Assembly: GCF_000019165.1 (NCBI RefSeq)
Contig: NC_010337.2
Location: forward strand, 1,822,501 to 1,886,500
Direction: 5' to 3'
Length of the DNA stretch: 64,000 bases
Source of the DNA: Heliomicrobium modesticaldum Ice1
GTDB lineage: Bacteria > Bacillota > Desulfitobacteriia > Heliobacteriales > Heliobacteriaceae
In this document: positions 32,031 through 44,257 of the stretch, one piece after another
Position numbering within the stretch: position 1 is the stretch's first letter
How the letters are laid out: every line of letters starts with the position of its first letter
Notes under the pieces: generated by a model
What the model was told of the DNA's origin: nothing
Seen by the model: only the letters and a program-made list of their open reading frames with translations
Databases searched by the model: none
Program-made: the position numbers and the translations under genes

Positions 32031-33380
32031 ATGATGGCCATGCACTTAAGTGAAAAACTGCAGATCTTATCGACAGCAGCCAAATACGATGTTTCCTGTT
32101 CCTCCAGCGGCAGCAATCGGGGGAGGAAGGCGGGTACGATCGGCAGCACCGCTTCTTCTGGCATCTGCCACAGCTGGTCTGACGATGGCCGCTGCATCTC
32201 CCTGCTCAAAGTTCTCTTCTCCAACGTCTGCTGCTATGACTGTTCCTTCTGCGTTAACCGCGTCTCCAACGACGTTCCTCGGGCTTCTTTTACACCGGAT
32301 GAATTGGCCGATCTGACGATCAACTTCTACCGCCGCAACTACATCGAAGGGCTCTTCCTTAGCTCCGCCATTGAGAAGGGACCGGACCATACGATGGAGC
32401 AACTGGTACGGACGGTTCGCAAGCTGCGCAAGGAATACCGCTTCAACGGATACATCCACTTAAAGGCCATCCCCGGTGCCGACAGCCGGCTCATCGCCGA
32501 AGCCGGTTCCCTCGTCGACCGGATGAGCGTCAATATCGAACTGCCCACCAGTGAAGGCTTGCGCCGCCTGGCCCCTCAAAAAAAGAAGGAGAACATCCTT
32601 CGGCCGATGGGGCAGATCACCGGCGCCATCGCGCAGAACCGGGAGGAGCGACGGCACTTTCGCCGGACGCCCACCTTTGTCCCGGCAGGTCAGAGCACTC
32701 AACTGATCATCGGGGCGACCCCTGAATCAGATCGGCAGATCTTTACCCTCGCCGAGGGCCTTTACCGCAAGTTTCAACTGAAGCGGGTCTACTACTCAGC
32801 CTATGTCCCTGTCAGCAGCGATCCGCGCCTGCCGGCATTGCCTGCGCCGCCCCTGTTGCGGGAGCACCGGCTCTACCAGGCTGACTGGCTGCTGCGCTTT
32901 TACGACTTTCGGGCCGACGAGATCGTCGACGCCGACAACCCGAACCTGGACCTGGAACTGGATCCAAAGACCGGCTGGGCGCTGCGCCACCTCGGCTTTT
33001 TTCCCGTCGAGGTGAACCGCGCCGATTACCGCACCCTCCTGCGCGTGCCCGGCATCGGTGTCAAGTCGGCCAAGCGCATCCTTGCGGCTCGGCGACTGGG
33101 AAGGATCCACTTTGAACACCTGGGCCGGATGGGCGTCGTCATGAAGCGGGCGCGCTATTTCATCACCTGTAACGGCCGCTATTACGGTGAAATCGGGCCG
33201 GACGCGACCAGCCTCCGGCAACGGCTGGTTATGCCGGAGCAGGGGGCGATCAAAGGAATGGCTGGCGGGGAACAGTTGACGTTATTTGGAGAGGAGATGG
33301 CGATGGAATCGGCGATGGCGACGCTGTTTTTGCCTGCGCCTGTTGAGGAACAGTGGTCGGTAGTGACGGGGGATCTATAG
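32031..33380 (+). CDS. Putative DNA modification/repair radical SAM protein (TIGR03916-like)
   Basis: The 449-residue protein has a radical SAM cluster motif CCYDCSFCVNR (CxxxCxxC near residue 70), YIHLKAIPGADSRLIAEAG in the barrel and MSVNIELPTSEGL. Near the C-terminus it has a helix-hairpin-helix (LRVPGIGVKSAKRILAARRL), a DNA-binding element. This matches the family annotated as putative DNA modification/repair radical SAM proteins. That family normally has a partner protein (TIGR03915) encoded next door; none is seen here. The exact start (32031, 32034 or 32040) is unclear. It stands alone before the cobalamin leader. Confidence 0.88.
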   Translation: MMAMHLSEKLQILSTAAKYDVSCSSSGSNRGRKAGTIGSTASSGICHSWSDDGRCISLLKVLFSNVCCYDCSFCVNRVSNDVPRASFTPDELADLTINFYRRNYIEGLFLSSAIEKGPDHTMEQLVRTVRKLRKEYRFNGYIHLKAIPGADSRLIAEAGSLVDRMSVNIELPTSEGLRRLAPQKKKENILRPMGQITGAIAQNREERRHFRRTPTFVPAGQSTQLIIGATPESDRQIFTLAEGLYRKFQLKRVYYSAYVPVSSDPRLPALPAPPLLREHRLYQADWLLRFYDFRADEIVDADNPNLDLELDPKTGWALRHLGFFPVEVNRADYRTLLRVPGIGVKSAKRILAARRLGRIHFEHLGRMGVVMKRARYFITCNGRYYGEIGPDATSLRQRLVMPEQGAIKGMAGGEQLTLFGEEMAMESAMATLFLPAPVEEQWSVVTGDL

Positions 33381-33471
33381 GGAGCGCCCGATCAGGGGAC
33401 GGCAGCCATGGTCAAGAAGGAATTGTCCGCTTCATCCCGAATAGACTAAACCATTAACCGAATAAGTCTGG

Positions 33472-33635
33472 GAACAGGTCACCTGTCCGGAGGACAGGTG
33501 TGAAAAGGGAAGCCGGTGCAAAACCGGCGCGGTCCCGCCACTGTGAGAGGGAGGCCCCCTGTGCGATGTCACTGGCTAGATGCTGGGAAGACGCAGAGGC
33601 GGCTCATGATCTCGAGCCAGGAGACCTGCCTGTTC
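33472..33635 (+). promoter_or_regulatory. Cobalamin (adenosylcobalamin) riboswitch, first of a tandem pair
   Basis: The conserved core is clear: gccggtgcaaaaccggcgcg, ggtcccgccactgtgag, a peripheral arm, and the B12 box gagccaggagacctgcc at about 33614-33630. P1 closes with gaacag (33472-33477) against ctgttc (33630-33635). A terminator 97 bases downstream can serve as its expression platform. Binding of adenosylcobalamin should favour termination and shut off the corrinoid operon. Confidence 0.95.
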
Positions 33636-33731
33636 TGACACTGCCGGTGTACCTACGCGGATAGGGAGGTGGTCTGCTTTGCCGTTCATGCATCTTCCTC
33701 TTGGGATGCGTCACGGTCCGACTGTGCCATG

Positions 33732-33758
33732 ACCTTAGCCGATAGGCTGAGGTTTTTT
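33732..33758 (+). terminator. Terminator between the two cobalamin riboswitches
   Basis: Nine-bp stem accttagcc/ggctgaggt with loop gata and six T residues (33753-33758). No ORF lies between the first aptamer and this hairpin, so it is most simply the off-switch of the first riboswitch. Confidence 0.88.
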
Positions 33759-33830
33759 GCGTTCCAAGGGCGGATGAAGACATTTTTTTCGTTCCTTCCT
33801 CAATAGGAAAGAAATGACAACTGCATCATA

Positions 33831-33999
33831 CGAACAGGTCGCCTGTCCCGAAGGGCAGGAGTGAAATGGAAAGTCCGGTGCAAAACCGGCGCGGTCCCGC
33901 CACTGTAAGGGTGTGATGAGGCTCTTCCATGTCACTGGCAGCAGGCTGCCGGGAAGACAGCGCTTCAGATGACCCCGAGCCAGGAGACCTGCCTCTTCG
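33831..33999 (+). promoter_or_regulatory. Cobalamin riboswitch, second of a tandem pair
   Basis: A second complete aptamer: gtccggtgcaaaaccggcgc, ggtcccgccactgtaag and the B12 box cgagccaggagacctgcc (about 33975-33992). The core matches the first copy closely, while the peripheral arms differ. The start codon of cbiZ is 45 bases further, and no U-tract terminator is visible before it. Translational control of the aaggaggag ribosome site is therefore a reasonable inference. Reads as a two-stage gate with the upstream copy. Confidence 0.95.
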
Positions 34000-34043
34000 T
34001 GCTTACCGGCAACCGCCAACGACACACCAAAGGAGGAGACACC

Positions 34044-34868
34044 ATGGCATACAGGGGCGTCACTACCGGGATGGGAAGTCTCCATAGAAATGCGGAAAGC
34101 GCCTTGGCGTTCATCCGCCGCTATTGCCCGGAAAGGACGCCGGGAAGCTGGCTCTCCCTCCTTCCCGGACTGCGCGGTCGCCTCGAAAAAGAGTGCATCC
34201 TCATCGCCGCCGATATGCCCTGGCGCTGTGTCAGTTCAGGCATCCTCGGTGGGGGGATCAGCGACAAACGTTTTTTTGTCAACCGGCAGGTGCACAAAAA
34301 TTACAATGAATGTCAGCCGCAAGGCGAGACGATCGCTTTTCTGACGGGCGCTTTCCCCGATTGCCCCATCGATCAAACGACTGCGTTGATGACAGCCGCC
34401 CGGGTCTCTCAGGCGGCCTGGATGCAGAACCGTTGCGGCCCTATCGGCCTCTCGGTGGTGGTGACAGCTGGTGTGCGCAACGCCTGCGCCGCCGGCGTCA
34501 CCCCCTGCTGGGAAAGGACACCGGAAATCGGGACGATCAACATCATGGCTTTTCTGGATAACTCACTCACCGACGGGGCACTGATCAACGCCGTACAGAC
34601 CATCACAGAAGCGAAAAGCCGGGTATTGCGGGAATTGCGTATCTGTTGCGCCCAGACAGGCGACTGGGCCACCGGCACAGGTACCGACGCTGTGGTGGTG
34701 GCAGCCCGGCCCGGCGGTGAGCCGCTGGCCTATGCCGGGCCGACGACACGGCTTGGCGCCTTGCTCGCTGCCACCGCCGGCGCAGCCCTGCGGCAGGCTG
34801 TTCAAGCCTACTTGAGCGCAACAGGCCGCCGTGCAGGTCAAGCGAAAGAAGCGACAGGGGCAAAGTAA
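34044..34868 (+). CDS. cbiZ: Adenosylcobinamide amidohydrolase CbiZ
   Basis: The 274-residue protein has the CbiZ family pattern: WRCVSSGILGGGI near the N-terminus, SVVVTAGVRNACAAG, INIMAFLDNSLTDGALINAV and the C-terminal GTGTDAVVVAARPGG. CbiZ cleaves the aminopropanol/nucleotide arm of corrinoids such as adenosylcobinamide to yield cobyric acid, so that foreign corrinoids can be rebuilt. ATG 34044 follows aaggaggag; a longer in-frame start would lie inside the riboswitch. It leads the B12-controlled operon. Confidence 0.94.
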   Translation: MAYRGVTTGMGSLHRNAESALAFIRRYCPERTPGSWLSLLPGLRGRLEKECILIAADMPWRCVSSGILGGGISDKRFFVNRQVHKNYNECQPQGETIAFLTGAFPDCPIDQTTALMTAARVSQAAWMQNRCGPIGLSVVVTAGVRNACAAGVTPCWERTPEIGTINIMAFLDNSLTDGALINAVQTITEAKSRVLRELRICCAQTGDWATGTGTDAVVVAARPGGEPLAYAGPTTRLGALLAATAGAALRQAVQAYLSATGRRAGQAKEATGAK

Positions 34869-34969
34869 ATAAAGCAAACGAAGCAGAGAAGGCAGACGAA
34901 GGAAAGGACATAAAGGGGATTCAGCCCAAAAGACAGGGCGAAAACACAGATAAATGAACAGGAGGATGG

Positions 34970-37900
34970 ATGGTCTTGCATTACTTTTATCGTGCCAATC
35001 AGAGCGGCCGAAAAACAGCGGCGCTGGCGATGGTTTTCCTGCTCCTTTGGAGCCTTTGCCTGCCCCTTTTCACAGCCCATGCGGCGTCGGGAGTTCCCTC
35101 CGTCCAGGCCGGGCAGCTGGCCGGCAAGGCCGTCGATTTCATCTGCAATCAGGTGAAGAGCGGAGAACCTGTTGATGGTTATACGGCTGCCGTGTTGATC
35201 GCGGCAAAGGAGGATCTGGGCGCAGCCAAATGGACGCCGCCTTATTCCTTATCTGTGAAAGAACAACGGATATCTGAGGCGGATGCCCTTGCGATCGGGC
35301 CTGAACTGGGAAGCAAAAACAACCTGATTACCTATCTTTTGGCCAATCAAAATAGCGACGGCAGTTTCGGTCCCTTTGCCAACGAGTATGGGACCAAGGT
35401 CAGCCTGGAAGCTTTGGCCCGGATCAAAAGCGATGTCCCCGTTGGTCCCCTGAAGGAACGGGTCGAACAGGCGATCGAAAAAGGGGTTCACTTTCTGCGG
35501 GAGCGCTTTGCCCAGAGCGATGAAGCCTATTCGAACACCGGGTTCGCTTCTTTTGACGCCCGCTTTGTTTCTGCGCTCGCCCTTGCCGGTGAGGACTTGA
35601 CGCAAGCCTACTGGCAGAAAAAGGGAAAAACGCTGCGCGAGCAGGCTGTCGCCGATGCTGTCTATGCTGCCGACAATCCTGATGGTAAGAGCGTCACCGA
35701 GTTGTCCAAGCACCTGACGGCCCTGTATCAGCTAGAGCCAAACCACGAAAAGATCAACGCCCTTGCGGAAGCCATTCGCAATCAGAAGCAGACCGTCGAC
35801 GACGGCGTCCGCTTCGGCGCATCCCTCTATGATGACGTCGCCGTATTGCAGGCGCTGGGACAAAGCAACCAACTGGCGGGCATCGAGCCGGCGAAGGTCC
35901 TCAACTATATCAACCGGTTCCGCACAGACCACAGTGATGACTGGGGAACGCCGGCAGGGAGCGCCTACGGCAGTTATAGCCCCAAAGAACCGGAACTGAC
36001 GGCCCAGGTGTTGTCAGCCCTTTCCGGATTTAGAGCGGGAGCGGACATCGACAAGGCCATCGATGCCATCCAGACCTACCTCAAAGCGATCCAGCATAAG
36101 GATACGGCGGCCATCCCTGTTTCCGGCGACAGCACTACCGCCACCGCCGAAACGCTGATCGCCTTGAAGCGGCTCGGCCTCCCCTATGAGCAATACGGAG
36201 GAGACGATGGAGGCTGGTCGAAGGCGCCTCGTGTCAAACCGTTGGCGCTTTCCCTCATGGCGATGCAGGCGCTGCAGGAAAAGGAACGCGCCCACAAGCT
36301 GGCAGACTTGCTCCTGGCCCGTCACACAGCGCAGGACGGCTTTTCCAACAGCATCTACAGCGACAGTTGGGCCTATCTGGCCTTGGAGGAAGCTGGAAAA
36401 ATTGCTGAAATCAAGGAAAGCGCCCGCGCCTATCTGTTGAACAAGCAACGACAGAACGAATCGGACAAAGGCGCTTGGGGCGAATCTTTTGGCGGCGCTT
36501 TCTATGCCGACTTCATGTCGACGGCCCAGGCGATCCGGGCGCTAAAAGGTCTGCCCGGGATGGATGGCGATGCTGCTGTTCAACAGGCGATAGCTGACGG
36601 ACTGGCCTACTTGAAGAGCAAGCAACAGGCAGACGGCAGCTTCGGCGGCTCCTTCGACGATCCCGTCGTCGACACGGCGGAAATGATCGTCACCATGCAA
36701 AAGCTCGGTCTGAATCCCGGTGAATTGAAAAACAGCAACCAACAGAGTCCCGTCGATTGGATGTTGACGAAGGCCCTCAACAAGGACGGCAGCTTCGGCG
36801 GCAGCAAGAACGTTTTTGGCGCTACGGAAGCCCTGGCCGCTTACCTGGTGCTAAACGGCCTGCCTTCCGGCGTCGGGTCGGACGGCGGGATCACTCCGCA
36901 GGATGACACAGCCGATGTGTACGTCGCTGTGATCGGCAGATCTGGCGAGAGACTTTTCGGTCCTGCCGCTGTCAAGGTGAGCCTAAAGGGTCGCTGGGGA
37001 ATGACCGTCCTGGGGGCGTTAGAGCGCACCGGTTTGCACTACGCTGACCGAGGCGGTTTCGTGACCTCTATCGCCGGTCAAGCCAACCAGGGGATGTCCG
37101 GTTGGATGTACAAGGTGAACGAAGTCACCCCGATGGCAGCAGCCAAAGATCAGGCGGTGAAATCGGGAGACGAAGTGATCTGGTGGTACAGCGTGGATAT
37201 GAACAACCCCGGACCGACCTGGGACGATGTAATCAGCGGCAAGTCGCTGGGAAGCGTACCGCAGCCGACGAATACGGTTCCGACCAGTATCACTGAACAA
37301 ATCAAGCATTTTCCTCAAGTGTTGCAGGCATCGGATAAAGCGATTCAAGCCTTGGAGCGTTTGAAAAAAGAGGCCGCCTCGACTGCGCTGGCACAGGAAA
37401 GACCTGTCGAGGCGATCGACAGCGGTTTAGTGGCCCTGGTGGTGGTGGGCGAGTTTCAGCCGCTTACCGAAGCGGCCTACCAACAACAGCAGCGTGAACA
37501 GGCTGATAATCGCCTGCTCTTGCAGCAGGAGGTACAGGCCGATCAAGGAGCGGTCATCGCCGATGCCAAGGGAGAAGTCGCCCTGGCGGTGCCAGCCAAG
37601 GCGTTGAGAAGGGACATGAAAGTGACCATCCAGGAAACGGCGCCGCCTTCGGCGACTGAGCAATCAGCGCAACAGGCGCCGGCAGGGTTTCGGTTCCTCT
37701 CGTCCCTCTACCGCTTTGGTCCAGACGGAACGACCTTTGCCGAACCGGTCACCGTCGCCTTGCGCGTGGCGCTGCCCCCGGAAGTAAGCCCGAAAGATGT
37801 GTCGCTGGCTGTCTTTGATGTAAAATCCAAGGCCTGGATGGCCGTGCCTGCCGTCTACGACGCTGTCAAAGGCGTGTTCCTGACGCAACTTCGTCATTTT

Positions 37901-38488
37901 TCCGACTATGCTGTCTTGGCAAGAGCGATGCCCGAGGCGCTTCCGGTTATGGCGAAAGTCCAAGCACCCTTTGCCGATCTGACGGGGTTCGAGTGGGCTG
38001 CCGAGAGCATTCGGCGGTTGTCTGAGGCCGATATCCTCCGCGGTGTTGCGCCGGACAGGTTCGAACCGGGTCGGACCGTCACGCGGGCTGAGTTCACCGC
38101 TTTGCTCGTCCGCAGCCGGCGCCTGCCAACATCAGGCCAGGCGAATTTCTGCGATGTGCAGCCTGGGGATTGGTTCGCCCCGGTAGTGGCCGCCGCTGCC
38201 GAGGCCGGTATCGTCAATGGAGACCCTGATGGTGCTTTTCGGCCCCATGACCGCATCACCCGGGAAGAGATGGCTGTCATGTTAGGCAAATCGCTCCGTT
38301 GGCAGCAGACAGAGACGGGAGGGGCGCCCTTCACCGATCAGGAGGCGATTTCGCTTTGGGCACGCCCTTGGGTCGCCCAAGCGGTCAAGCAAGGCCTGTT
38401 GCGCCGATATGAAGACGGCAGCTTCCGGCCCCGGGCAGAGGCCAACCGCGCCGAGGCGGCGACGCTCATCGACAAGTTGGTGCAGTAA
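34970..38488 (+). CDS. Surface protein: toroid-like repeats, DUF4430 and three SLH domains (putative transcobalamin-like corrinoid-binding protein)
   Basis: This 1172-residue protein has a signal peptide (cleavage near AHAASG, residue 40). Residues 60-640 carry spaced QNSDGSFGPF, QQADGSFGGS and NKDGSFGGS motifs, the pattern of alpha/alpha-toroid (terpene cyclase/prenyltransferase-like) folds. Residues about 645-755 form a DUF4430 domain (VLGALERTGL, GWMYKVNEV, VIWWYS), the type classed as transcobalamin-like C-terminal. Residues 1000-1172 contain three SLH repeats for wall attachment. Toroid plus DUF4430 is the architecture of animal intrinsic factor and transcobalamin. Riboswitch control and the ECF genes support corrinoid capture; ligand binding itself is inferred. 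Ribosome site aggagg precedes the ATG by four bases. Confidence 0.85.
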   Translation: MVLHYFYRANQSGRKTAALAMVFLLLWSLCLPLFTAHAASGVPSVQAGQLAGKAVDFICNQVKSGEPVDGYTAAVLIAAKEDLGAAKWTPPYSLSVKEQRISEADALAIGPELGSKNNLITYLLANQNSDGSFGPFANEYGTKVSLEALARIKSDVPVGPLKERVEQAIEKGVHFLRERFAQSDEAYSNTGFASFDARFVSALALAGEDLTQAYWQKKGKTLREQAVADAVYAADNPDGKSVTELSKHLTALYQLEPNHEKINALAEAIRNQKQTVDDGVRFGASLYDDVAVLQALGQSNQLAGIEPAKVLNYINRFRTDHSDDWGTPAGSAYGSYSPKEPELTAQVLSALSGFRAGADIDKAIDAIQTYLKAIQHKDTAAIPVSGDSTTATAETLIALKRLGLPYEQYGGDDGGWSKAPRVKPLALSLMAMQALQEKERAHKLADLLLARHTAQDGFSNSIYSDSWAYLALEEAGKIAEIKESARAYLLNKQRQNESDKGAWGESFGGAFYADFMSTAQAIRALKGLPGMDGDAAVQQAIADGLAYLKSKQQADGSFGGSFDDPVVDTAEMIVTMQKLGLNPGELKNSNQQSPVDWMLTKALNKDGSFGGSKNVFGATEALAAYLVLNGLPSGVGSDGGITPQDDTADVYVAVIGRSGERLFGPAAVKVSLKGRWGMTVLGALERTGLHYADRGGFVTSIAGQANQGMSGWMYKVNEVTPMAAAKDQAVKSGDEVIWWYSVDMNNPGPTWDDVISGKSLGSVPQPTNTVPTSITEQIKHFPQVLQASDKAIQALERLKKEAASTALAQERPVEAIDSGLVALVVVGEFQPLTEAAYQQQQREQADNRLLLQQEVQADQGAVIADAKGEVALAVPAKALRRDMKVTIQETAPPSATEQSAQQAPAGFRFLSSLYRFGPDGTTFAEPVTVALRVALPPEVSPKDVSLAVFDVKSKAWMAVPAVYDAVKGVFLTQLRHFSDYAVLARAMPEALPVMAKVQAPFADLTGFEWAAESIRRLSEADILRGVAPDRFEPGRTVTRAEFTALLVRSRRLPTSGQANFCDVQPGDWFAPVVAAAAEAGIVNGDPDGAFRPHDRITREEMAVMLGKSLRWQQTETGGAPFTDQEAISLWARPWVAQAVKQGLLRRYEDGSFRPRAEANRAEAATLIDKLVQ

Positions 38489-38516
38489 TCCTGCAACAGT
38501 CTAGGAGGTGAAGGCG

Positions 38517-39248
38517 ATGGGCAAGAAAATCGGCTGGCATTGGGGATTTTTGCTGGTTCTCTTGGCCCTGTTGTTTGGGGCTGTCTCTCTTTCCGGAAAC
38601 AGCGGCACATCGGAGAACATACAGACGGCGCTGAGCACCGCTGCCGATAGGGATGCTTACGAGAAAGCCCAAGGGGCGGTCGCGAAAGAGCCACCTGTTC
38701 TACAGAACACCTCCACTCAACCGAGTGAGGAAGGAACGCAAAAGGGCGTTCCTTCCTCGCCTGCTTCCAAGGAGCTGACGAAAGGCGTAGAAAAGGCCCC
38801 TTCAGGGATGAGCAAGTCAGCCGAGATTCCTGCAGTGACAGGCGGCAAGGAGGCAAAGGGAGAAACAGAGGCTTCTGTAGATAAAGAAATCCCTAAGGGT
38901 CTCTCTGTGTCGATTGCCGTCGTCGGCCAAAAGGGAGAACTGCTTTTCGGACCGGAGAGCGTCTTGATCAAAGACGATAACCGTTGGGGTAAAACGCCCC
39001 TGGGAGCGCTGGAGGCGACAGGATTGCGGTATGGCATGGGCGCAGGTTTCGGAAGTTTTGTCACCAGCATCAACGGCCAGGTTAACCAGGGGATGCGCGG
39101 TTGGATGTACAAAGTCAATGATGAGACGCCCATGGTGGCCGCCAACCAAAAAGCAGTGCAAAGGGATGATCGGATCATCTGGTGGTACAGCAATGAGATG
39201 GATGCGCCGAGCCCCGATTGGGAGGCGCTGCTGCAACAGAAACGATGA
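38517..39248 (+). CDS. DUF4430 protein, membrane-anchored or secreted (putative corrinoid-binding)
   Basis: The 243-residue protein has an N-terminal hydrophobic helix (WGFLLVLLALLFGAVSLSG) without a lipobox cysteine. A charged Ser/Glu/Lys-rich spacer follows (about 35-125), then one DUF4430 domain (PLGALEATGLRYG, GWMYKVNDETP, IIWWYSNEMD). The domain closely resembles that of the preceding surface protein. It lacks the toroid and SLH parts. It may be a membrane-side acceptor passing corrinoid to the ECF transporter; this is inference. ATG 38517 is chosen with aggagg eight bases before. The stop overlaps ecfT as ATGA. Confidence 0.82.
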   Translation: MGKKIGWHWGFLLVLLALLFGAVSLSGNSGTSENIQTALSTAADRDAYEKAQGAVAKEPPVLQNTSTQPSEEGTQKGVPSSPASKELTKGVEKAPSGMSKSAEIPAVTGGKEAKGETEASVDKEIPKGLSVSIAVVGQKGELLFGPESVLIKDDNRWGKTPLGALEATGLRYGMGAGFGSFVTSINGQVNQGMRGWMYKVNDETPMVAANQKAVQRDDRIIWWYSNEMDAPSPDWEALLQQKR

Positions 39249-40195
39249 CCGATGCAGCGCAACGGCGGAATCAGCCGATTCATGTTTTAGAGAGCGCATC
39301 GATACTGACCACCTTGCATCCGGCGGCTGCCTTGACCTATGCTGTCTCACTCCTCTTTCTACTCATGTTCATCGACCACCCCCTCTTTCTCGCCGGCGCT
39401 CTCGCGGTTCAAGCCGTCACGATCGCGGCCTTGGGCCGGTGGGCAAAATGGAACGAGGCGATGGGCTTCGCTCTGCCCATGAGTACGCTGATCCTGCTCA
39501 TCAACCCGCTCCTGGTGCGGTCTGGGGAGACGGTCCTCTGGAGCGGACCGACCATCCCGTTGCTGGGACCGCTGTTCATCACCATGGAAGCTGTGGCCTA
39601 CGGCGCGGCTATGGCCTTGAAACTGCTCAATGTCCTCAGCCTGTTTTTTATTTACAGCGGCATGCTCTCACCTGACGATCTGCTGCATCTCTTCTCCAGG
39701 GTGGCCTTTCGCTCGACTATGGTGATCTCCTTGGCGACGCGGCTTTTTCCGACGATGCGCCGGCGGCTGGAACAGATCCGTCAGATCCAGGAAATGCGGG
39801 GCGTACGTTTTGACGAGGGGACCATCGGGGAGCGGGTGGGCAAGTATGCCGGACTGGTGGAAGCGCTGCTCTTGGCATCACTGGAAGATTCGTGGGAAAC
39901 GGCAGAGGCAATGGAGGCGCGCGCCTTCGGCGTCGGCCCCCGTACGAGTCACCGCCGTAAGCGTTGGCGGCGGCGCGACAGCCTCTGTATGGGCGGGGCG
40001 ATCCTGTCCCTCGCTGCTGCTGTCGCGGGCGCCTGGGAGGGTATGCTGCTCTACGCCTATTACCCGGCCCTCGCTCCCCTTCACGGTGATGTTAAGACGC
40101 TTACGGCTTTGGCCTCTATCCTGGCGGGGTTGCTGGTCCCGGTAATCCTGCATTGGGGGTGTCGCAAATGGACCTTTATTCGCTCCGCGATCTGA
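39245..40195 (+). CDS. ecfT: ECF transporter transmembrane component EcfT
   Basis: This 316-residue integral membrane protein has several helices and the EcfT coupling motifs: RRLEQIRQIQEMRGV near residue 180 and EAMEARAFGVG near 225, the two Ala-Arg-Gly-type helices that contact the ATPases. EcfT couples ATP hydrolysis to toppling of the S component. ATG 39245 overlaps the previous stop. The 3' end overlaps the ATPase gene by 28 bases, so translation is tightly coupled. Confidence 0.92.
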   Translation: MTDAAQRRNQPIHVLESASILTTLHPAAALTYAVSLLFLLMFIDHPLFLAGALAVQAVTIAALGRWAKWNEAMGFALPMSTLILLINPLLVRSGETVLWSGPTIPLLGPLFITMEAVAYGAAMALKLLNVLSLFFIYSGMLSPDDLLHLFSRVAFRSTMVISLATRLFPTMRRRLEQIRQIQEMRGVRFDEGTIGERVGKYAGLVEALLLASLEDSWETAEAMEARAFGVGPRTSHRRKRWRRRDSLCMGGAILSLAAAVAGAWEGMLLYAYYPALAPLHGDVKTLTALASILAGLLVPVILHWGCRKWTFIRSAI

Positions 40196-41931
40196 GCTAT
40201 TTCTATCCTGAAAAAAGGCAGCCTGCCTTGCGCATCAACAGCTTGCGCATCGAAGACGGGGAGTTTGTCCTGGTGTCCGGCTTATCTGGATCGGGAAAAT
40301 CAACGCTGGCTCGGGCCTTGGCGGGGCTCGTTCCCCGTTTTTACGGCGGCCGGTTCAGCGGCGAACTGCGTTATCAAGGCCGCCTGCTGATCGATCTGCC
40401 GCGGCGAGAACTCGCCCGGGAGGTGGCCATCGTCTTTCAAGATCCGGAAAAGCAACTGGTCATGACCGAGGCGGAAGCGGAAATCGCCTTCGGATTGGAG
40501 AATCTAGGCCTTTCCCCAGCTGATATGGCGGCGCGGATCGCCGAGGTGATGAGCTTCTTTCAACTGTCTGCGCTCAAAGGGCGGGAGATCTGGACATTGT
40601 CCGGCGGACAGCAGCAGAAGGTGGCCCTCGCGTCGGCGCTGGCCATGCAGCCGCGCGTCCTCATCCTCGATGAGCCCACATCCCAATTGGATCCGGCAGC
40701 CGCCGAGGAAATCCTGAGTCTTGTCAAGCGGCTGAATGAGGACTTGGCGATGACCATCGTGCTGGTGGAGCAGCGCCTGGACCGGTGCTTCCATCTGGCC
40801 GACCGCGTCTTGTACATGGAAGAAGGGGCTATCGTTTTTAACGGTTCGCCTGGGGAGATGGCCCAGTGGGGCGCCTGTCGAGCGGGCACCCTTGCGCCAC
40901 CGGTGGCTCGTTTCTTTGCCGGAATGGGCCTGTCGCCTGTTCCGATTACCGTCAAAGCCGGGCGCAAAGCCCTTGCGGCGCTGCTCTCTCGGGAAGGCGA
41001 ACCGGAACGAGCACTCTCTCTATCCCCGCCGACAACCTCCAATGCATCGAACCTTCCGGAGCTAGCCACGTTGAAGGGCCGGAAGGGAGTTCCGCCAGCT
41101 AACGCTGCTGTATCGCTGGATCGGATCTGGTTTAGCTACCCTGACGGGTGGGAGGCGTTGCAGGATGTCAGCCTGAGCGTCGCGCCGGGAGACTTTTTGG
41201 CGCTCCTGGGGCCGAACGGCGCCGGCAAATCGACACTCTTGCGGCTCATCGCCGGGTTGTTAAAACCGGGGCGGGGCCGCTGTTCCTTATCATCGGCAAA
41301 GCAAGGGGTTCGCTCCCTCCATGCCGGTGGGCGGATCGGCTACCTGGCTCAAAACCCGAACGACTACCTGCTTCAGGACACGGTAGAAGCGGAAGTGGCC
41401 TTCGGGCGACGCAATTTTGGCCTCCCCGACGACGGGACGGTGGAGAGGCTTTTGCAAGAGCTCCGACTCGAAGCCTACCGCGGCGTTCACCCTCGCGATC
41501 TGAGCGGCGGGGAACGGCAGCGGGTAGCCATCGCCGCCGTCTTGGCCACCGATCCGGAAATCCTCTTGCTCGACGAACCGACGCGGGGGATGGATGAGCA
41601 GCTGAAAGACGAACTGGGCGCGCTGTTGCGACGGCGGATGGATGGTGGGGCCGCTGTAATCCTTGTTACCCATGATGTGGAGTTTGTCGCCCGCCACGCG
41701 ACGCGCGTGGCGATCCTTGACGGCGGCAGGGTGGTCAGAGAGGGCGGTTTGTTGACCGTGCTGGGGGAGTCGCTCTTTTACTCGACCCAGATCAGCCGCC
41801 TGTTTCGCCATGCAGCGCCTCAGCTCCTGACGCCGGAAGCCGCCTGGGCAGCTTTTCGGGATGTAGGTCGGCAGGCGCGCAAGCAAGCGGAGGGAAGGGA
41901 GGCGGACGTCCATGTGGCCTGCTTGGCCTAA
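40168..41931 (+). CDS. ecfA: ECF transporter ATPase, fused EcfA-EcfA'
   Basis: The 587-residue protein contains two complete ABC ATPase domains. Domain 1 (1-240) has GLSGSGKSTLARAL, LSGGQQQKVALASAL and LILDEPTSQLDPAA. Domain 2 (about 315-560) has LGPNGAGKSTLLRLI, LSGGERQRVAIAAVL and LLLDEPTRGMD. ECF modules usually use two separate ATPases, A and A'; here both are on one chain. The ATG at 40168 is preferred to an in-frame TTG upstream. It lies between EcfT and the S component in one operon. Confidence 0.95.
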   Translation: MDLYSLRDLSYFYPEKRQPALRINSLRIEDGEFVLVSGLSGSGKSTLARALAGLVPRFYGGRFSGELRYQGRLLIDLPRRELAREVAIVFQDPEKQLVMTEAEAEIAFGLENLGLSPADMAARIAEVMSFFQLSALKGREIWTLSGGQQQKVALASALAMQPRVLILDEPTSQLDPAAAEEILSLVKRLNEDLAMTIVLVEQRLDRCFHLADRVLYMEEGAIVFNGSPGEMAQWGACRAGTLAPPVARFFAGMGLSPVPITVKAGRKALAALLSREGEPERALSLSPPTTSNASNLPELATLKGRKGVPPANAAVSLDRIWFSYPDGWEALQDVSLSVAPGDFLALLGPNGAGKSTLLRLIAGLLKPGRGRCSLSSAKQGVRSLHAGGRIGYLAQNPNDYLLQDTVEAEVAFGRRNFGLPDDGTVERLLQELRLEAYRGVHPRDLSGGERQRVAIAAVLATDPEILLLDEPTRGMDEQLKDELGALLRRRMDGGAAVILVTHDVEFVARHATRVAILDGGRVVREGGLLTVLGESLFYSTQISRLFRHAAPQLLTPEAAWAAFRDVGRQARKQAEGREADVHVACLA

Positions 41932-42616
41932 ACTGCAAGTTCCGCTCATCCTGGCGCTGGCCGCCGGTTCCCTCTTTGCCAGTCTGATCGGAAGAAACAT
42001 CGTCGGACGGCAGGGTTGGGGATTGTTGGCTCTGGAGATGGTCTTTCTGGCGCTGCTGCTGCTCTTCTGGGCTTTTGAGCGAAAAGAGATCTGTTCCCGC
42101 GAACTCGCCATGATCGCCGTCCTGGGCGCGCTGGCGGCAGTGGGCCGGATCCCTTTTTCCGCCTTGATGGGCATCCAGCCGGTCACCTTTTTGACGGTCC
42201 TCTCCGGCGCAGTCTTCGGTCCCCGGGCAGGGTTCATGGTCGGGGCGACGGCAGCGCTCGTGTCCAATTTTTTTCTCGGCCAGGGACCCTGGACGCCTTG
42301 GCAGATGTTCAGTTGGGGCATGGCCGGCCTGTCGGCAGGCTTGCTGACACGCTTTTTTCCGGACATTGGGCGGCTTTGGATGCTCGCCTTTCTCTTTGCC
42401 TGGGGTTATCTCTACGGGTGGATAATGAACTTCTGGCACTGGAGCGCCTTTGTCCATCCCCATACAGGGCAGTCCTTCTTGCTCACTTATCTGGCCAGCC
42501 TGTCCTTTGACACGGTCCATGCCATCGGCAACTGCCTCTTTTACGCCCTTTTTGGTAAACGATTTACGATGATACTCCAGCGTTTTCGCAATAAGCTGCA
42601 GGTGGCGGTGTCATAA
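41912..42616 (+). CDS. ECF transporter S component, probably for cobalamin/corrinoids
   Basis: This 234-residue membrane protein has about six helices, with RELAMIAVLGALAAVGRIPF and GIQPVTFLTVLSGAVFGPRAG typical of ECF substrate-binding S components. The CbrT-like assignment for cobalamin rests on the riboswitches, cbiZ and DUF4430 neighbours rather than on a decisive motif. It overlaps the ATPase gene by 20 bases. Having its own T and A partners makes this a dedicated (group I) ECF system. Confidence 0.87.
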   Translation: MWPAWPKLQVPLILALAAGSLFASLIGRNIVGRQGWGLLALEMVFLALLLLFWAFERKEICSRELAMIAVLGALAAVGRIPFSALMGIQPVTFLTVLSGAVFGPRAGFMVGATAALVSNFFLGQGPWTPWQMFSWGMAGLSAGLLTRFFPDIGRLWMLAFLFAWGYLYGWIMNFWHWSAFVHPHTGQSFLLTYLASLSFDTVHAIGNCLFYALFGKRFTMILQRFRNKLQVAVS

Positions 42617-42760
42617 AAAGGACTTTCAAAGGGAAAAAGCGTGGGCGGTTCAAGAGCATTTGGCGCAATGGGCGATAGCGCGGTGCTTGGCACCAGCAGG
42701 CGGAGATGATAAGTTAAAAGGAGGGGGACTTGCGCTCTTTTACATAGGAGGTTTGAATTT

Positions 42761-44257
42761 TTGATTCAACGCGAACGAATCCAAGTCCTTAACGCTGGCT
42801 CTGCTCAGGCGGGTCGGTATGTTCTCTATTGGATGCAAGCCAGCCAGCGGGCTGAATACAACCATGCCTTGGAATACGCCATCGGGGAGGCCAACAAACT
42901 GGGCCTGCCCGTGCTCGTTTTCTTCGGCCTGACAGGAGGCGTACCCGGCGCAAATGCGCGTCATTACCGTTTCTTGTTGGAGGGGCTCTGCGATGTTCGG
43001 GAGGCCTTGCAACGCCGGGGCATCGCCATGATCATCCGGCGCATTCCTCCGGTGGAGGGTGTCGTCGCGCTCGCCCGGCGGGCCGCCCTCGTCGTCACTG
43101 ACCGAGGCTACCTGCGCTACCAGCGCCAGTGGCGGGAGGCTGCCGCCGCCCGGATCGACTGTCCCTTCATCCAAGTGGAAAGCGATGTCATCGTCCCTGT
43201 CGAGACGGCGTCGCCGAAAGAGGAGTATGGGGCGGCCACGTTTCGGCCCAAGATCAAAAGGCTGCTGGACACTTTCCTGGTTCCATTGGAGGAGCGGGAT
43301 ACGGATTGCCCAGCTCCGGATGTTGAAGCATTGCTCGATGAGGCGCTTCCCGGAGAACCGGTTTTTGCCGACTCCGCTACCCCCCTGTCGTCGATCGTGA
43401 CTGCCCTGTCCGTCGACGCCTCCATCTCCCCGGCCAGGGGCTGGCGGGGCGGTTCAAAAGAAGCCCACCGTCGCCTTGACGATTTCCTGGGCAAGAAGCT
43501 CTTCCGTTATCATGAAGACAAAAAGGACCCCTCCCTCGACGGCCTCTCTGAGCTGAGCCCCTTCCTGCATTTTGGCCAGATCTCACCGTTGGAGGTGGCA
43601 TTGAAGGCCCGGCAGGCTGTTGCAACAGACCTATCCCTTGATGGAACGGGCTTATCCCTCGATGGCACAGGCCCATCCCCCGTCGGTGTGGGCCCATCTC
43701 CCAACCCCGGTCTGGCTGCTTTTTTGGAAGAATTGATCGTCCGCCGCGAACTGGCCATGAACTTCGCCTACTACAATCCCGCCTATGACCAATTCGCCGC
43801 CCTGCCCGCCTGGGCGCAGGCAACACTGCATAGCCACCGGCTCGATAGCAGAGAATTCAACTATACAAAGGCGGAATTGGAGAACGCCTGCACCCATGAC
43901 CGCTACTGGAACGCCGCCCAGACCGAACTTGTCCTGCGCGGCAAGATGCACGGCTACATGCGCATGTACTGGGGCAAGAAGATCCTCGAATGGACGGCCG
44001 ATCCGGAGAGGGCCTACCGGATCGCCGTCGAACTGAACGACACCTACGCCCTTGACGGGCGCGATCCCAACGGCTACACCGGCATCGCCTGGTGTTTCGG
44101 CAAACATGACCGGCCCTGGGGCGAGCGGGCCATCTTTGGCAAGGTCCGTTACATGAACGCCGCCGGCCTGCGCCGCAAATTCGACATCGAGGCCTATGTC
44201 CGGAAGGTGGAGAACTTGGTCGAAGAGAACGAAAAAAACGGTAAAAGCGGGGTTTGA
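42761..44257 (+). CDS. phr: Class II deoxyribodipyrimidine photolyase
   Basis: The 498-residue protein has YVLYWMQASQRAEYNHALEY at the N-terminus and the class II C-terminal block TELVLRGKMHGYMRMYWGKK. It uses light and FADH to split cyclobutane pyrimidine dimers. At about residues 288-315 there is a low-complexity insertion with repeated SLDGTG units that is not expected in the family. The start is TTG 42761, nine bases after aggagg. The gene follows a 140-base gap after the ECF operon and ends inside the promoter of the next unit. Confidence 0.94.
   Translation: MIQRERIQVLNAGSAQAGRYVLYWMQASQRAEYNHALEYAIGEANKLGLPVLVFFGLTGGVPGANARHYRFLLEGLCDVREALQRRGIAMIIRRIPPVEGVVALARRAALVVTDRGYLRYQRQWREAAAARIDCPFIQVESDVIVPVETASPKEEYGAATFRPKIKRLLDTFLVPLEERDTDCPAPDVEALLDEALPGEPVFADSATPLSSIVTALSVDASISPARGWRGGSKEAHRRLDDFLGKKLFRYHEDKKDPSLDGLSELSPFLHFGQISPLEVALKARQAVATDLSLDGTGLSLDGTGPSPVGVGPSPNPGLAAFLEELIVRRELAMNFAYYNPAYDQFAALPAWAQATLHSHRLDSREFNYTKAELENACTHDRYWNAAQTELVLRGKMHGYMRMYWGKKILEWTADPERAYRIAVELNDTYALDGRDPNGYTGIAWCFGKHDRPWGERAIFGKVRYMNAAGLRRKFDIEAYVRKVENLVEENEKNGKSGV

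Follow-up and report, generated by a model that had tools for sequence, protein, structure and literature searches.

A cobalamin riboswitch-linked operon of Heliomicrobium modesticaldum with transcobalamin-like surface proteins and a CbrT-type importer, probably for corrinoid salvage

The animal carriers of vitamin B12 (transcobalamin, TC; intrinsic factor, IF; haptocorrin, HC) are soluble proteins with a single toroid followed by a beta domain, and they are taken up by receptors. To our knowledge, the route of B12 through the thick Gram-positive wall to an energy-coupling factor (ECF) importer has not been worked out. We analyzed a 64-kb stretch of Heliomicrobium modesticaldum Ice1 DNA (the window; G000:C1:1822501-1886500 of a genome of 3,075,407 bases). 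On its forward strand, at 33459-42616, it holds an operon of two cobalamin riboswitches followed by genes for CbiZ, a toroid/DUF4430/SLH protein, a small DUF4430 protein, EcfT, EcfAA' and an S component. Like the animal carriers, the large protein has a toroid and, behind it, a beta domain with their fold, and it differs from them in an apparent nested double toroid, an SLH anchor and an accompanying ECF importer. Wall-anchored SLH proteins with a NEAT domain also capture a tetrapyrrole and hand it on; this likeness lies in the way of working only, and their binding domain and ligand are unrelated to those described here.

The closest described proteins are toroid and SLBB proteins of Gram-positive bacteria, in which both domains were predicted to take part in B12 binding (Burroughs et al. 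2007, PMC1796856). In the accessible part of that paper, a second SLBB paralogue is described in the operon with CbiO and CbiQ alongside, the hosts usually lack key B12 synthesis enzymes, and animals are proposed to have received their B12 carrier from such bacteria. The operon of H. modesticaldum shares with these systems the secreted alpha/alpha toroid, the DUF4430-type beta-grasp domain, the paralogue of the latter and the CbiO/CbiQ neighbours. It differs in that its host has corrin-synthesis genes; moreover, the accessible text of the 2007 paper makes no mention of riboswitches, an S component or CbiZ, and 'S-layer' and 'SLH' occur 0 times in its main text. The central idea dates from 2007, and the reading given here is probably right in outline. 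What we add is the linkage to CbrT and to cobalamin riboswitches, the SLH anchor, the optional CbiZ, the apparent nested double toroid, a frequent separate toroid partner, a host with corrin-synthesizing genes and a species-specific deletion.

The second system is ECF-CbrT of Lactobacillus delbrueckii (6FNP), which carries cobalamin and cobinamide (PMC5997447). It has a related S component, EcfT and ATPases. Its ECF module is common to several S components, whereas the module described here is encoded in the operon, and the accessible part of that paper mentions no toroid or SLH protein. The L. delbrueckii cluster is given there as nrdJ-cbrS-cbrT-pduO, and cbrS may be a DUF4430 gene. A Lacticaseibacillus proteome, as far as its report was accessible, lists an 'additional lipoprotein component of putative cobalamin ECF transporter' and, separately, a DUF4430 protein beside rtpR (PMC9963975). 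We found no published test of corrinoid binding by a bacterial DUF4430 protein in a search that had most subscription journals outside its reach.

We consider it likely that the operon serves the salvage and import of corrinoids, with transcobalamin-like capture at the wall, hand-over by a DUF4430 protein, CbrT-type ECF uptake and remodelling by CbiZ. We favour this reading because of the riboswitches, the CbrT-like S component, the co-occurrence of DUF4430 and CbrT, the linkage of the genes at their loci, the fold of the beta domain, the host without BtuF, and the corrin and BzaB genes of that host. Cobalamin would switch the operon off through the two riboswitches. The wall-bound SLH protein would catch cobamides or cobinamide between its alpha/alpha toroid and its transcobalamin-type beta-grasp domain. 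The small DUF4430 protein, presumably tethered to the membrane by its N-terminal hydrophobic segment and a flexible linker, would take over or shield the corrinoid and present it to the CbrT-type S component. Uptake would be powered by the dedicated EcfT/EcfAA' motor, and intracellular CbiZ would cut the nucleotide loop or the aminopropanol arm, so that the cell could rebuild its own cobamide.

The composition of the operon, which had been proposed in a sequence-only reading of this DNA as riboswitches, CbiZ, an SLH/DUF4430 protein, a second DUF4430 protein and a complete ECF unit, was confirmed by Rfam, Pfam and the gene junctions. The coupling of the genes, also proposed there, holds from the SLH gene onward and is less strict at the gap of 101 bp between the CbiZ and SLH genes. 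The SLH gene (34970-38488) is separated by 19 bp from the small DUF4430 gene (38508-39248), which an ATGA overlap at 39245 joins to EcfT (39245-40195, start inferred from this overlap). EcfT overlaps the gene for the fused EcfAA' ATPases (40168-41931) by 28 bp, and the latter overlaps the S component gene (41912-42616) by 20 bp. With a spacing of 19 bp at most, or an overlap, the genes from the SLH gene through the S component are probably coupled in translation. Riboswitch 1 begins at 33459, upstream of the 33472 first given as the start of the operon. No sigma-70-like promoter was detected at 33300-35000 (0 vs 0.6 in shuffles) and no terminator at 42500-42900, and therefore neither end of the operon is fixed.

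The ligand was approached through the importer and its neighbours. EcfT is CbiQ-like (PF02361, CbiQ/EcfT, 1.4e-13), EcfAA' carries two ABC ATPase stretches in one protein (ABC_tran; TIGR04520, 3.4e-110), and the S component matches ECF_trnsprt (4.4e-11), which has four matches in the host, three of them over the cut-off and the operon S component among them. Behind an N-terminal extension of approximately 62 residues, the S component aligned with 6fnp_A at 4e-13 (its residues 63-228 on residues 10-175 of the 182 in that chain); among solved S components the next one reached 0.12. A BtuF-type protein was not detected in the host (0 matches to PF01497; the same model, as a control, had matches in 13 of 14 genomes). 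Corrinoid import is well supported, as the riboswitches, an S component of the CbrT type, the co-occurrence counts and the neighbouring genes all speak for it. It is very improbable, in our view, that the imported ligand is not a corrinoid, for example cobalt, or a vitamin such as folate or riboflavin. The S component does match the NCBIfam folate (2.9e-6) and riboflavin (1e-4) families weakly, far under cut-off, and EcfT resembles CbiQ. Against this stand the CbrT match, with its distance to the next S component, and a separate set elsewhere in the genome, where CbiM is followed by a transposase, CbiQ and an ABC ATPase behind a cobalamin riboswitch (L173 1001-5797 = G000:C1:563500-568296).

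Co-occurrence was counted in 398 genomes of the phylum. PF14478 was present in 120 of them and a CbrT-like protein (E <= 1e-12) in 114; both were found in 110 genomes, CbrT only in 4, DUF4430 only in 10 and neither in 274 (Fisher p 2e-80, a count that ignores the relatedness of the genomes). A strong CbrT relative thus accompanied DUF4430 in 110/120 genomes and was found in 4/278 genomes without it. We further compared 40 loci by means of profiles built from the operon proteins; the loci had been picked by their DUF4430 matches, in most cases two side by side. EcfT and EcfA were each found in 36 loci, CbrT in 35 and the small DUF4430 protein in 37; EcfT, EcfA and CbrT stood together in 35/40, and toroid, DUF4430 and SLH lay on one frame in 34/40. 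In 36/40 loci the 5 kb of upstream sequence contain a cobalamin riboswitch in the same orientation (24 in a first tally of 37 rows, hand-picked as lying on the contigs of the loci from among the matches listed by a strict-filter scan, and 12 on rescanning of the 16 loci without a match at that point). As no more than 206 bp of upstream sequence is available in L070 and L072, this amounts to 36/38 loci with upstream DNA. In L053 and L083 the SLH gene follows its riboswitch at a distance of 5.4 and 5.2 kb, respectively; the distance in L053 is 3.5 kb if a second toroid/DUF4430 frame is taken as the reference. Among 71 named loci, many at contig ends, the three-part protein was present in 57 and the full ECF set in 52. 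The cassette recurs across Bacillota; the genomes that hold it bear names such as Moorella, Pelotomaculum, Syntrophomonas and Desulfotomaculum. The metabolism of some of these genera is corrinoid-dependent.

The ten genomes with DUF4430 and no strong CbrT relative bear on the ligand as well. Loci were taken for nine of them (not G227), and Rfam was run on the loci of eight (11/16 loci; L163 and L169-L172 left out). RF00174 was found by the DUF4430 gene in L164, L166 and L167, and an AdoCbl-II riboswitch in L161 and L162. In L168 there was no riboswitch, and MTHFR together with a sub-cut-off Met_synt_B12 match adjoined the DUF4430 gene. Neither Rfam nor the neighbours gave a B12 sign by the DUF4430 gene in L157 and L165, and these 2/8 agree with a ligand other than a corrinoid; the five with a cobalamin or AdoCbl-II riboswitch and the one with adjoining methionine-synthesis genes argue against it. 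In the ninth genome, G246, the large protein is preceded by RF00174 (L082). An association of DUF4430 and ECF that is specific for another ligand was sought in these loci and not found, and nothing in their gene content seems to point to another vitamin. In L161 (6357-7394) and L162 (5886-7009) the AdoCbl-II riboswitch is accompanied by a short DUF4430 gene and a hydrophobic-looking neighbour, for which there was no Pfam match at E 0.01; this neighbour is possibly an unrecognised corrinoid S component.

The small DUF4430 protein (246 aa; PF14478, the model for the transcobalamin-like clade of the SLBB superfamily, is matched by the two secreted proteins of the operon with 53.5 and 57.3 bits vs a cut-off of 23.8; 2.1e-15 for the small one) was modelled with a block-mean predicted local distance difference test (pLDDT) score of at least 92 over residues 131-246. 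All 16 PDB chains at Foldseek E <= 0.001 were TC, HC, IF or 3u7z (Ruminococcus gnavus). In VIA-align the domain matched TC, IF, HC and 3u7z with Z 11.3-12.8 (root-mean-square deviation, rmsd, 1.9-4.2 A, 93-100 residues, 15 rows), and the next Z was 7.2. The models thus support a fold shared by DUF4430 and the beta domain of transcobalamin and intrinsic factor, and the earlier assignment of DUF4430 as a transcobalamin-type beta domain holds at the level of fold. The N-terminus carries a hydrophobic stretch and no lipobox. Such a stretch was present in 38/38 small DUF4430 proteins (simple hydropathy score; 41 loci including this one), and a lipobox pattern in 8/38. By fold, 3u7z falls together with DUF4430 and the beta domain of transcobalamin, so that this protein, whose description reads putative metal-binding protein, may be a corrinoid binder.

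The 1172-aa protein has an N-terminal signal sequence, as read from its sequence, and Pfam matches to SLH in three stretches (1.3e-29), DUF4430 (3.3e-14) and a squalene-cyclase-type toroid (6.1e-7). Its ectodomain was modelled over 741 residues from 40 sequences (mean pLDDT 90.4, predicted template modelling score 0.76). The first Foldseek match of the model was transcobalamin 4zrp_A (E 3.4e-7, 397 columns), with low template modelling (TM) scores of 0.20 and 0.34; a terpene cyclase followed close behind (4.4e-7), with cyclases from rank 4, and 15/32 matches at E <= 0.001 were TC, HC or IF. Sequence searches of PDB, single-sequence or profile, did not reach transcobalamin from either the ectodomain or the small DUF4430 protein; fold comparison alone did. 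In VIA-align, intrinsic factor matched both domains over model residues 5-703 (Z 17.7-17.8, ranks 37 and 43 among the 50 rows listed). There was no transcobalamin or haptocorrin row among these 50, in a list that is no search and excludes nothing. Superposition on holo intrinsic factor placed the toroid and the beta domain differently (rmsd 18.5-18.7 A over 318-323 residues, for a ligand-free model with a linker pLDDT of 39). The transcobalamin-like layout suggested earlier thus stands for both domains in one chain, and their relative placement in this ligand-free model does not match; the modelled parts are transcobalamin-like, and a closed corrinoid sandwich stays a prediction.

The toroid fold is a common one, and its top VIA-align partners were class II terpene cyclases (Z 21.1, residues 77-364). 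We give hardly any credence to the idea of an N-terminal half that acts as an enzyme at the surface, or binds polysaccharide, by means of a cyclase/glycosidase toroid, with DUF4430 incidental. The top VIA rows, class II terpene cyclases and then sugar epimerases and glycosidases (Z 17-21), would fit it; the protein is, however, secreted, linked to riboswitches and joined to DUF4430 on the same frame, most loci have a CbrT-type ECF unit, and transcobalamin was first in Foldseek. Class II terpene cyclases have DxDD as their catalytic acid motif. This motif (D.DD) was not found in the 1172-aa protein, and a catalytic class II cyclase was rejected on this ground.

The aligned ranges (77-364 vs 5-593), together with the existence of short and long forms, point to a second toroid nested within the first in the ectodomain. 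The short form (fewer than 130 residues aligned in 90-350) was seen in 20/39 relatives, which lack most of ectodomain residues 61-380; among these 20, L101 is cut by a contig end and L142 is possibly incomplete. Toroid-in-toroid insertion is known from squalene-hopene and class II cyclases. In 22/40 loci we observed, in addition, a toroid frame without DUF4430 (e.g. L047 7571-8863, L055 10766-12139, L052 5273-6862), which the operon of H. modesticaldum does not have. It carries SLH repeats in 8 loci, and that of L055 has a Cu_amine_oxidN1 domain. Such a toroid-only protein could pair in trans with the small DUF4430 protein.

A possible elaboration, which we put forward tentatively and regard as somewhat improbable as a whole, is a relay with two lids. 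The beta domain would close the toroid clamp at the wall; the membrane-tethered second copy would displace it, remove the corrinoid and dock on the S component. The nested toroid would act either as a second site or as a gate. In cassettes that also encode a separate toroid-only protein, the transcobalamin would be put together from two chains. It is rather unlikely that this is a corrinoid system without any relay, in which the SLH protein would store or retain corrinoid (the cell's own included) on the cell wall. The small DUF4430 protein would then belong to the ECF complex as a binding subunit of its own. The corrin-synthesis genes of the host agree with this reading. The stretches L158 and L160 hold no SLH gene, and a short DUF4430 gene adjoins a CbrT-like gene there, so that the small protein seems to work independently of the wall protein. 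(Among the three CbrT loci scanned with Rfam, L158 has RF00174 upstream and L159 and L160 have none; the next gene of L158 begins like what we take to be an ATP:cobalamin adenosyltransferase.) Both DUF4430 genes, however, accompany one ECF unit in most loci (35/40 with full ECF), and control by cobalamin riboswitches would suit uptake better than storage.

Further evidence on the salvage reading comes from the host, which has five cobalamin riboswitches, two of them in the operon. The other three precede CbiM, two ThiC-like proteins, and genes of the cbiD, E/T, L, F, G, H and J types. The best NCBIfam match of both ThiC-like genes (L174 1191-4372 = G000:C1:2074690-2077871) is BzaB; the second is over the BzaB cut-off, and the first is below it and over a ThiC cut-off. 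BzaB takes part in the synthesis of the lower ligand, and the host probably makes its own benzimidazole lower ligand, judging from these matches. As the host has both corrin-ring and BzaB genes, salvage with CbiZ remodelling fits better than strict auxotrophy.

Several points weigh against salvage and import with transcobalamin-like capture. In a host with corrin-synthesis genes the need to scavenge B12 is less obvious. The domain placement of the ectodomain, its low TM-scores to transcobalamin and the cyclases at the head of its toroid comparisons have been described above, as has the relatedness behind the genome count. The distribution near H. modesticaldum is patchy: in 3/3 genomes of the genus a match spans the ectodomain, and among the other family members searched 1/6 matches its C-terminal part and 5/6 give no match. 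Finally, CbiZ is an optional part of the cassette. It was found in 9/40 loci, in 7/71 named loci and anywhere in the genome in 49/398 genomes, and CbiZ as a fixed part was rejected on the count of 9/40. If corrinoid binding is demonstrated, the system would be a bacterial counterpart of transcobalamin, and it would support the 2007 proposal that the B12 carriers of animals came from Gram-positive bacteria (PMC1796856, as far as accessible).

The leader of the operon was compared with two congeneric genomes. Both aptamers here (riboswitch 1, 33459-33647, 125.8 bits; riboswitch 2, 33819-34010, 110.8 bits) exceed the RF00174 gathering score of 31.5 in Rfam, and both relatives likewise have tandem cobalamin riboswitches, each followed by a terminator-like hairpin. 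In H. modesticaldum such a hairpin follows riboswitch 1 (33731-33754, 10-bp stem, T run), with counterparts at the same place in both relatives. The pattern is near chance here (4 sites in the region vs 2.0 in shuffles) and exceeds shuffles in the relatives (4 vs 1.3; 7 vs 1.7). The pattern alone is weak, and it is the conservation of place and sequence that speaks for the hairpin. The relatives have a gene of 355 aa between riboswitch 2 and CbiZ (L046 2684-4899; L047 13178-15302). Over 33819-34250, H. modesticaldum lacks the hairpin behind riboswitch 2 together with most of this gene, the start of which is now fused to CbiZ as approximately its first 33 codons (33 residues aligned at 63% identity, E 7.3e-5). 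Since its hairpin is missing, riboswitch 2 may act here on the ribosome site or may be decaying. CbiZ itself (34044-34868, adenosylcobinamide amidohydrolase family) matches PF01955 with 186.1 bits vs a cut-off of 27 (8.7e-55). Its start had been placed at 33969; 34044 is more likely, as a good ribosome site precedes it. A distant relative of the 355-aa gene (35-37% identity) is located in the same genome at G000:C1:987749-988903.

Cassette genes were also seen in metagenome-assembled genomes labelled Deltaproteobacteria and Armatimonadetes (L111, L113), by transfer or mis-binning; there was no CbrT match in the Deltaproteobacteria stretch. CbrT-like matches inside open frames of approximately 800-1060 aa (e.g. 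G310:C29, G176:C59, G240:C184) may be fusions with other ECF parts. On the same strand the operon of H. modesticaldum is flanked by a radical SAM/helix-hairpin-helix protein (32031-33380) and a photolyase-like protein (42761-44257), both kept in both congeneric genomes. Elsewhere in the window we detected a lysine riboswitch (RF00168, 60799-61021, 108.3 bits).

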